Of a stretch of 64,000 nucleotides of DNA, positions 23,487 through 28,920 are shown piece after piece. Numbering within the stretch: the first letter of the stretch is position 1; each line of letters starts with the position of its first letter. The notes under the pieces were generated by a model. That model was given only the letters and a program-made list of their open reading frames with translations, was not told where the DNA came from and did not search any database. The translations under genes were made by a program, and so were the position numbers. This stretch comes from Proales similis (Eukaryota > Rotifera > Eurotatoria > Ploima > Proalidae): contig JAGVRJ010000013.1 in assembly GCA_019059635.1 (NCBI GenBank), positions 744,001 to 808,000 of the forward strand, read 5' to 3'.

Positions 23487-25638
23487 ATGATGTACAGAGC
23501 GAGCAGCAAATTAACTGAGACGAGCTCAGGCTCATCGCAGCTTCATTTAATCTGCTCTGTGCTCGCCTGGTTCGGTCTCAATTTGCTGGCTGTTCTTGTA
23601 TCCAAGTCTTTTCTCAACCAGGTCGACAATCCGCTCCTGCTCACGCTCTTCACCTTTTCGATCGGATTTCTCATTCGGCTGGCTGTCTGCTGCAAAGAGC
23701 CACATCCGCCCGCCGCAATATTCGTGCTGGCATTGCTGAACGTGAGCGCAATCTTTCTAAACAATCTGGCCCTCTCGCAATCAAGTGTAGCGCTCACCTA
23801 CATGATAAAAGTAAATTGACTGAGACACGATTACTTGCGCAACAATATAAGAATTCATTTGCGACTCTTCAAAGGCAACTGAGCCAGCGTTTGTTCTGGC
23901 GATCGCGTTCATCGAATTGAGAGAGAGCGCCACTTGCATGCTGGTTGCCACCATACTGCCAGTTTGCCTGGGCGCTCTGTTGGTTGTGATTGGCGAGATG
24001 CACTTTACCTACGTGGGCCTGCTCGCTGCTCTACTGTCAAATGCCGCCTGCACCTCTCGCAGTGTCTTGTTCAAACAAGCCGGATTCAAATCGGCCAGCA
24101 GCTTTCAAGTCTATATCCAAATGAACTTTTACTCTTTTATTTTTTCATTTCCTTTGATGACTTTCTACGTTTTGAACAACACCGCCTCCATTGACTTTTT
24201 GCGATCGTCAGACAAAAGTCGAAACCAATTGGTGGCAGCGTTGGCACTGGCCAGCTTGGCAACGTTTCTCTACAACCTGTACTCGATTCGTGTTCTATCG
24301 GCGCTCTCGTCCCTCTCTCATTCGTTGTTGAACATCCTCAAACGAGTGCTGACCATAATCGTTTCTCTCCACTATTTCGGCACGCCAATCAGCGGCCTTC
24401 AAATATTAGGAATCTGCACCACTAATTTGGGCCTACTGGGCTACGCAAAGCTAAAATCAAGTGGCAGCTGTTCACGCGCTAGTCCAACAGATCTTCGCCA
24501 AAATAGCCGCCCCAGACTCATTTGGACAATCACGCTGGTCGTGGCCGTCTTCGTTCTTGCGAACAGCGTCCAGAAAGACAAACATGTGCCAATAGAAAGA
24601 GAAAGGAGAATTTGCTTGGCCAAGATTCAGCGCGAAATTGTAGACAAGTATCGACCGGTGTTGGAGAAGCACAAATCTGCGGTTTTATACGACGTGCCAG
24701 GTCACGAGAACTACGGCGACACTCTCATCTGGTAGCAGCAGTTTGAATTTTTAGAAACGCGAAAATTCTCATCAACGCTTTAAAGGATCGGCGAAGAGCG
24801 GCTGATGAAAGCGCTCGGTGTGAACTTGCGAGCCGTCGTCTACGGCGAACAGTTTCAGTTTGGCAACACTCCGCGTGTCGACTTTCCACTGCCGAACGAT
24901 GCGGTTCTCTTGCACGGGGGCGGCAACTTTGGCGATCTCTACCGCTCTCACACGACGCGGCGAGACCATGAGCTGGCGAAAATGAACATCTGGAACCACA
25001 CTGTGCTCGTTCTGCCGCAAACGATCAGCTACATGTTACCGTTGAACGCTCTACGCGACAATCGGTTTTATGAAAAGCTTCAGAATCTGGTCCTCAGCGC
25101 TCGCAGTCAGTCGTCCTATGATCAAGCGAGGCGGTATTTTAAAAAAGCGAGAGTTATTGCCGTTCCTGACGCGGCATTCATGATCGGCGCGTTGAAGCCG
25201 GCCTTCGAGGCCAAAGTAGACGTTTTGCTTTTGGTCAGAAATGATCCAGAGTCCAGACATTCGCCGAGTAGATGGCTTGAAGCGATTTCGGTTTTGAAAA
25301 GCGCCGGCGTTTCTTCGCTCAAAACCGACTGGTTCGAACACCAACTTCCGGGCATGGGAGACAAGAGCAAACTGTTGAATGCGCGCCTTGAGCTCGTCAA
25401 CTCGATCATGTCCCAAGGCCGCGTTGTAATCACCGACCGACTTCACGCCAGCATCTTCAGTGTGCTCATCGGTCGGCCTCATATAATCGTCGCTGATAAA
25501 TTCGGCAAGATAGAGCAGACTCGAGAGCTGGCGTTCAGAGGCAAGCCAGAGTGTCACAACAGGCACATAAAAGCCTACAACGCTTCAAATCCAGTGGAGG
25601 CGGCTCGCTTGGCCGTTAGACTTGTGAGAGAGAGCTAG
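23487..25638 (+). CDS. TPT-family (PEP-translocator-like) transporter fused to polysaccharide pyruvyltransferase
   Basis: Three exons (23487-23810, 23875-24731, 24786-25638) encode 677 residues. Residues 18-335 contain ten hydrophobic helices of the drug/metabolite transporter fold, with the TPT/SLC35E hallmark SLLNILKRVLTIIVS in helix 9 and KATEPAFVLA in helix 4. An eleventh helix (about 350-367, WTITLVVAVFVLANSV) leads into a polysaccharide pyruvyltransferase domain with YDVPGHENYGDTLIW, HGGGNFGDLY (about 437-446) and ITDRLHASIFS, whose histidine (about 614) sits at the conserved catalytic position. With ten helices and cytosolic ends, helix 11 would place the enzyme in the lumen. Both modules share exon 2, so the fusion is genuine. 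Plant plastid PEP carriers belong to the TPT family and pyruvyltransferases use PEP. I infer Golgi PEP import coupled to glycan pyruvylation; the acceptor sugar is unknown. Confidence 0.88.
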
Positions 25639-28069: not shown

Positions 28070-28920
28070 ATGGACGATGACATACTTACAACCCTCAAAA
28101 TCCTCATCATAGGCGAGAGCGGAGTGGGCAAGTCGAGTTTGCTGCTTCGCTTCACCGACGATCTGTTCGACCCTCAGCTGTCGGCCACCATCGGTAACTG
28201 TCCCTTAGCAGACTCTTTCTCTCGCATCCGACAGAGTGCCTAACTGCCAGGCGATGAGCAGGCGTTGATTTCAAAGTGAAAACCATCGATGTCGACGGCA
28301 ATGTCGCCAAACTGGCCATCTGGGTAACAAGCGTTTGCCTCTGCTTTGACAGATTGGGGTCTATTCGACGTTGCGAAATTAGGACACGGCCGGCCAAGAA
28401 AGGTTTCGAACACTGACGCCCAGCTACTACAGAGGAGCCCAGGGTGCCATTCTCGTCTACGATGTGTGCAACCGAGAGACGTTCACCAAACTGAACGTTT
28501 GGCTCAACGAGCTGGAAACGTTCGCCAACAAGCCGGACATGGTCAAAATGCTGGTCGGCAACAAGATCGACAAGGTAGCAATGTGGACTGATTTAAATTT
28601 GAGAAACACGACACTAAACGACACTCTAATCGACGCTAGGCCAACCGCGAAGTATCAAAAGAAGAAGGTCTTAAATTTGCGCGAAAGCACTCGATGCTAT
28701 TTATAGAAGCCAGCGCCAAAACAAAAGAGGGAGTTCAAATTGCGTTCGAAGAGCTGGTCGAAAAGGTGGTTGCCGTTTTTTTTTTGCTGATCGCCTTTGT
28801 TTAAGTAATTTCGCTTGGACACAGATACTGCAAACGCCGGGTCTGTGGGAGAGCAAGAAAGGCGGCATTCGCATGAAGAGTGAGGAAAAGCCGCCGGGCG
28901 AGGCTTGTTCTTACTGCTGA
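28070..28920 (+). CDS. RAB18: RAB18 small GTPase
   Basis: RAB18 is a Rab GTPase of the ER and lipid droplets. Five exons fit: 28070-28193, 28262-28323, 28383-28574, 28640-28765 and 28825-28920 (199 residues; human 206). It begins [20 protein letters not shown] and has the P-loop GESGVGKS, the switch I threonine in [23 protein letters not shown] and EASAKT. RAB18-specific stretches include [34 protein letters not shown] and [10 protein letters not shown]. The C-terminus ACSYC provides cysteines for geranylgeranylation. AATAAA follows at 29083-29088. Confidence 0.96.

Follow-up and report, generated by a model that had tools for sequence, protein, structure and literature searches.

Contig 13 of the Proales similis genome assembly carries a locus that raises a two-part question: does one animal gene encode, in a single polypeptide, both a TPT-type membrane carrier and a pyruvyltransferase, and would that carrier supply the enzyme behind it with phosphoenolpyruvate (PEP)? 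The original prediction, made from the letters of the window (the whole stretch of 64,000 nucleotides analysed here), proposed such a protein and placed its enzyme in the Golgi lumen.

One gene encodes a carrier and a pyruvyltransferase

In the window, the fused gene extends from 23487 to 25638 on the + strand, and its three inferred exons encode 677 amino acids followed by a stop codon. Its parts are arranged as follows, with C7 and C12 denoting two close paralogs in the same genome.

23487..23810, + strand: exon 1, with the start codon, carrier helices 1-3 and the beginning of helix 4 (residues 1-108); its last residue is Lys108
23550..24444, + strand: TPT carrier domain (intron 1 within), residues 22-298, Pfam PF03151, E 1.8e-36
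23811..23874, + strand: intron 1, 64 bp, GT-AG, phase 0, not present in the C7 and C12 paralogs
23875..24731, + strand: exon 2, with the rest of helix 4 and of the carrier, followed by the extra (eleventh) helix, the linker and the motif GHENYGDTLIW
24709..25494, + strand: pyruvyltransferase domain (intron 2 within), residues 387-630, Pfam PF04230, E 1.1e-20
24732..24785, + strand: intron 2, 54 bp, GT-AG, phase 2, between GDTLIW and IGEE, with the position and phase found in the C7 and C12 paralogs
24786..25638, + strand: exon 3, with the bulk of the pyruvyltransferase domain and the stop codon

Both Pfam domains are present in the 677-residue protein nearly from end to end, as the original prediction had it. 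The TPT profile scores 126.5 bits (gathering cut-off 30) over positions 4-290 of 291, and the PS_pyruv_trans profile scores 75.1 bits (gathering cut-off 25.3) over positions 1-277 of 280. Searched singly against Pfam, the three open reading frames of the gene match, in turn, the N-terminal part of TPT (with a score under the gathering cut-off), the remaining TPT and PS_pyruv_trans. Together with the motif GHENYGDTLIW, these matches confirm that exon 2 runs from helix 4 of the carrier through the extra helix to the first enzyme motif. The predicted helix count stands in part: the eleventh helix is evident from hydropathy, while the ten carrier helices rest on family membership, plain hydropathy giving eight segments in the carrier part and one behind it. 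All introns of the fused rotifer genes are inferred from genomic sequence; for the window gene, 18 in-frame splice combinations are open, from which we picked the one whose junctions match those of the paralogs and restore the motifs common with them.

A search of the whole assembly (15 contigs, 32,716,893 bp) returned four PS_pyruv_trans matches, three of them preceded by TPT: the gene in the window and its paralogs C7 (686 amino acids) and C12 (682 amino acids). The fourth match, C9, is a 917-residue open frame.

L011:1620-3741: C7 fused gene
L012:1485-3592: C12 fused gene
L013:3054-5807, - strand: C9 gene, Glyco_transf_8 followed by a distant pyruvyltransferase-type domain, without carrier

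In C7 and C12, one open exon holds the complete carrier together with the extra helix and the NYGDTLIW motif, and the phase-2 intron between GDTLIW and [IA]GEE, inside the enzyme domain, is common to all three fused rotifer genes. Beside the C9 gene, at L013:1976-2578 (+ strand), an open reading frame resembles by eye the reverse transcriptase of a non-LTR retroelement.

Given the two fused paralogs and the exon common to both halves, we rejected the explanation that two adjacent genes were merged by the gene model. The two paralogs also make chance or mis-assembly a very unlikely source of the fusion in the window. Bacterial contamination was likewise rejected, given the introns, the presence of fused paralogs on 3 of the 15 contigs and the neighbours of the window gene, one of GAS8 type and one of the Arf family (- strand), which fit an animal nuclear genome as expected. 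Elsewhere in the window, at 28070-28920 (+ strand), a Rab-type small GTPase gene with short introns can be recognised by eye.

The same domain pair was sought in other genomes, and sequences from a limpet and a chytrid, among others, contained it. Protein searches retrieved full-length TPT-pyruvyltransferases from the chytrid Phlyctochytrium arcticum (P0012), a EukProt transcriptome (P0024) and an ENA contig (P0001). P0012 has the domain order of the rotifer protein; it is fungal, and its name mentions only the triose-phosphate transporter family. The protein of the limpet Patella caerulea (P0006), an animal like the rotifer, has a shortened carrier, a helix and then a pyruvyltransferase; its protein model is without the first helices, and its TPT score is 25.1 against Pfam's 30. 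Searches with the carrier halves added P0038, P0039, P0040, P0045 and P0046, which cover the carrier and the extra helix and break off at GD[TS]LIW or shortly behind it; we infer that these are exons of genomic contigs from relatives, ending at the common intron site. In P0008 and P0009, TPT is followed by a pyruvyltransferase-like domain of more distant kinship and by a Gb3-synthase-like glycosyltransferase domain. Both are assigned to a contig of 4,592,474 bases and may therefore be neighbours, and the middle part of P0008 matches the second half of the C9 protein (31% over 518 columns). Among prokaryotes, TPT (E up to 1e-5) was found in the same open reading frame in none of the best 80 of 386 confirmed relatives of the enzyme, and in none of the 773 open reading frames of at least 150 residues at the loci of those 80.

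Predicted ligand-binding residues of the two halves

The closest solved structure to the enzyme half is that of fission yeast Pvg1 (5ax7, E 1.3e-27), on which the following residues align.

24718..24720, + strand: Asp390, aligned with Pvg1 D106 (proposed catalytic, near the acceptor)
25102..25104, + strand: Arg500, aligned with Pvg1 R217 (modelled PEP contact)
25438..25446, + strand: Arg612-Leu613-His614, aligned with Pvg1 R337-L338-H339 (modelled PEP contacts)

In the published account of Pvg1, D106, R217 and R337 are proposed to be catalytic, and alanine substitution of D106 removes nearly all activity, while the two arginine mutants were not expressible (PMC4872226). Another report adds L338, H339 and D240 to the active residues (PMC6801904). 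All six are identical in the 13 proteins aligned here (13/13), including the three rotifer copies; H168, a residue engineered in published work, is variable among them. The bacterial CsaB profile TIGR03609 gives the window protein 17.1 bits, far below its cut-off of 213.1, and no viral relative of the enzyme was confirmed among 48 pattern matches.

Plastid PEP/phosphate translocators belong with the triose-phosphate/phosphate translocators, and the closest solved structure to the carrier half comes from the same family. Specifically, the window carrier matches 5y78 (GsTPT/GsGPT) at E 7.6e-14, the sole other matching chain up to E 1 being a ribosomal protein at 0.68, which we take as chance. 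A profile of five fused carriers matches 5y78 at E 2.5e-46, SLC35B1 chains from 0.0023 and LicB at 0.0061, and has no other match among solved chains up to E 10. The two phosphate-binding sites of GsTPT/GsGPT have counterparts in the window protein.

23808..23810, + strand: Lys108, aligned with phosphate-binding K204 of GsTPT/GsGPT
24340..24345, + strand: Lys264-Arg265, aligned with phosphate-binding K362-R363 of GsTPT/GsGPT

The K204 equivalent is kept in 12 of the 12 fused carriers that cover the site, and K362-R363 in 14 of 14, P0008 and P0009 included. Two further positions, GsTPT Y339 and T188, are presumably sites with a role. The Tyr339 column holds Tyr in the window copy and Phe in P0024; the T188 column holds Asn in the window copy and Thr in C7, C12, P0001, P0012, P0024, P0038, P0039, P0040, P0008 and P0009.

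The Lys/Lys-Arg trio is also found in GsTPT, in seven algal-type TPT rows and in a stand-alone TPT gene on C12. In GsGPT, these residues are reported to coordinate the phosphate group of 3-phosphoglycerate or phosphate, and the trio has equivalents in the ATP carrier SLC35B1 (PMC9010763). In view of these ligands and of its wider occurrence, we rejected the motif as proof of PEP transport. The rotifer carrier shares family and phosphate site with GsTPT/GsGPT and differs from it in being encoded by an animal gene, in having an extra helix and an enzyme behind it, and in scoring well below the cut-off of the NCBIfam tpt profile TIGR00817 (317.9 bits; window protein 89.9, C7 copy 126.3). The carrier half is thus phosphate-translocator-like, and sequence alone leaves its cargo unfixed; PEP is the cargo that we infer. 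On family placement the original prediction held, since profile searches keep the carrier with the phosphate translocators and the enzyme with PS_pyruv_trans and Pvg1.

The best-surviving alternative, which we regard as unlikely, is that the cargo of the carrier is a nucleotide sugar or some phosphorylated compound other than PEP, such as the donor of the sugar that is later pyruvylated, and that PEP arrives otherwise. The equivalents of the trio in an ATP exchanger and in the stand-alone C12 gene are in keeping with such a cargo, as is the link of TPT, in P0008 and P0009, to a different glycosyltransferase besides the pyruvyltransferase-like domain. However, the solved nucleotide carriers match the fused-carrier profile far less closely than the phosphate translocator does. 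Moreover, TPT outside the fused genes was found at two loci, on C12 (which we take to be SLC35E2-like) and on C1, neither of which groups with the fused carriers, and no further obvious PEP carrier appeared among the 16 TPT candidates scored exon by exon, a search that genes split into small exons could escape.

Membrane side, selection and history of the fusion

Carriers of the TPT family have both termini in the cytosol, so one added helix would put the enzyme in the lumen. Three features of the window protein bear on this placement.

24517..24573, + strand: extra (eleventh) helix, residues 323-341, from hydropathy; taken to cross from the cytosolic to the luminal side
24613..24615, + strand: Cys355, preceding the catalytic Asp by 35 residues, close to where Pvg1 has C68
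25552..25554, + strand: Cys650, following Arg612 by 38 residues, close to where Pvg1 has C373

In all ten proteins measured (P0045, P0046, P0008 and P0009 left out), the net charge on the N-terminal side of the extra helix exceeds that on its C-terminal side. The three rotifer copies show a difference of only a single unit, and the window copy has four Lys plus Arg before the helix and five after. The two cysteines occupy places nearly matching those of the C68-C373 disulfide described for Pvg1 (PMC4872226), with spacings of D-35 and R+38 in the window protein against D-38 and R+36 in Pvg1. A pair placed 35-37 residues before the Asp and 37-39 after the Arg, limits set after a first look, occurs in 14 of 14 rows of the rotifer enzyme clade and in 0 of 23 other scorable rows, with one further row undetermined and Pvg1 not among the rows; P0006 and P0024 are without it. 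If the two cysteines form a structural disulfide, this would indicate an oxidising lumen. The cysteine pair and the charges around the extra helix suggest a luminal enzyme. On our reading, the fused protein would be located in the Golgi. Two other sequences of this clade with the cysteine pair, P0015 and P0016, bear the bacterial names EpsO/EpsI and may be mislabelled eukaryotic sequences.

Both halves of C7 and C12 are under purifying selection, with dN/dS between the two copies of 0.16 for the carrier, 0.17 for the extra helix and linker, and 0.20 for the enzyme; relative to the window copy, silent sites of both are close to saturation. Identity between C7 and C12 is 95.2% in the carrier and 77.4% in the enzyme. 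Third-position identity per 40 codons is 78-95% up to codon 320 and 63-70% over codons 320-680, a drop that coincides with the border between carrier and extra helix, and the flanking DNA of the two genes is not alignable. This pattern makes it likely that gene conversion homogenised the carrier halves only, while the enzymes diverged. Homogenised carriers with diverged enzymes would suit one cargo and different acceptors.

It is improbable that the carrier half is transport-dead and serves only as a membrane anchor or Golgi address for the enzyme. P0011, P0013, P0014 and P0018 do tolerate, before the same enzyme, a multi-helix front not recognised as TPT, but the carrier half is strongly constrained (dN/dS 0.16), it is better conserved than the enzyme when C7 and C12 are compared (in part perhaps through gene conversion), and its ligand residues are kept; furthermore, one helix would do as an anchor, as the shorter P0002 suggests. 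The fronts of P0011, P0013, P0014 and P0018, which belong to the rotifer enzyme clade, have several hydrophobic segments and may be a different membrane part or a decayed carrier; neither hhalign (probability 0.1) nor Pfam gave kinship with TPT.

That a separate carrier and a separate enzyme are also made, the fusion not being the main working form, is the least credible explanation: retention of intron 2 would end translation right behind LIW, leaving a carrier without enzyme, and Met residues near or in the extra helix of C7 and C12 make an internal start conceivable there, but the arrangement and the intron position are kept in three paralogs, and the window copy has no Met at residues 204-400. 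No internal start in that interval could therefore yield the extra helix and the whole enzyme domain without the carrier helices, an argument confined to the window copy, given that C7 and C12 carry their Met residues in the matching stretch.

The enzyme tree places the rotifer and chytrid fusions next to each other (91/55, weak and not starred), and P0001 elsewhere in the same clade. P0024, P0006, P0021 and P0027 group with Pvg1 (81/73), outside the clade of the window protein; Pvg1 is therefore not the closest kin of the rotifer enzyme half, and the limpet fusion differs from the rotifer one in the clade of its enzyme. In the carrier tree, P0012 is again nearest to the rotifer genes (93/91, not starred); this tree is without plant PPT, Pet1 and human SLC35E sequences, and long branches make several of its placements unsure. 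AU tests reject a single clade of all seven fused enzyme rows, a group named before the tree (p 3.9e-5), and of the five left when P0006 and P0024 are dropped, a group chosen with the tree in view (p 2.8e-4). A single clade of the carrier halves is not rejected (p 0.20 for 12 rows, 0.38 with P0008 and P0009). The pair may have been joined several times, or one ancient fusion may have been followed by frequent loss of the carrier. Either history favours a working link between the halves, and repeated joining favours it more strongly.

A proposed donor cycle within one polypeptide

The reading that we prefer, with a probability of about 0.7, is that the protein is a PEP/phosphate exchanger of the secretory pathway that feeds its own luminal pyruvyltransferase in one chain. 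The TPT half would swap cytosolic PEP for luminal phosphate, and the extra helix would bring the chain into the lumen. There the enzyme half would form a cyclic ketal by moving the pyruvate of PEP to a terminal sugar, which is probably galactose, and the phosphate freed in the reaction would leave through the same carrier. Plastid members of the carrier family swap organic phosphates for phosphate. Because pyruvyl transfer from PEP frees phosphate, for which an assay is named in the title of PMC8615578, a fused exchanger would take in the donor and pass out the by-product in equal amounts.

The closest functional parallel is in fission yeast, where the Golgi enzyme Pvg1p is described as relying on the PEP carriers Pet1p and Pet2p (PMC4872226, PMC6801904). 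The rotifer protein resembles this system in its pyruvyltransferase family, in its active residues, in its predicted membrane compartment and in its predicted dependence on a PEP carrier, but the yeast enzyme and carriers are separate proteins, whereas the rotifer has one chain. Transporter-glycosyltransferase assemblies of the Golgi membrane, which hold a donor carrier beside its enzyme (PMC6453868), are complexes of separate proteins that handle nucleotide sugars; the rotifer fusion would be the covalent form of such an arrangement.

The original prediction knew of no described animal protein with this architecture. Our search of the open-licence PMC literature, in its wider part judged by the titles of the papers listed, likewise found no carrier-pyruvyltransferase fusion and no rotifer pyruvyltransferase. 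The architecture is thus undescribed in the literature searched, yet it is not unique to this animal, as the limpet, chytrid and other fusions make clear. Pyruvate has been reported on animal glycans, in sea-hare glycolipids and sponge glyconectins (PMC6994554, PMC6801904); in the portions of the literature drawn on here, a eukaryotic pyruvyltransferase gene is named only for fission yeast.

We tentatively go further, to a proposal that we hold at somewhat less than even odds. A single protein would run a complete donor cycle, with one PEP taken in for each phosphate passed out and perhaps direct hand-over from carrier to enzyme; the two halves would have been joined repeatedly in eukaryotes since the lumen otherwise lacks PEP; C7 and C12 would share one donor and serve different acceptors; and fusions of this kind would be the enzymes still missing behind the pyruvylated glycans of molluscs and other such animals. 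The fused genes, including the gastropod mollusc one, are concrete candidates for how some animals make pyruvate-decorated sugars. A carrier fused to its own enzyme makes substrate hand-over testable within one protein, and the reading offered here proposes a cargo for one branch of the TPT/SLC35 family.
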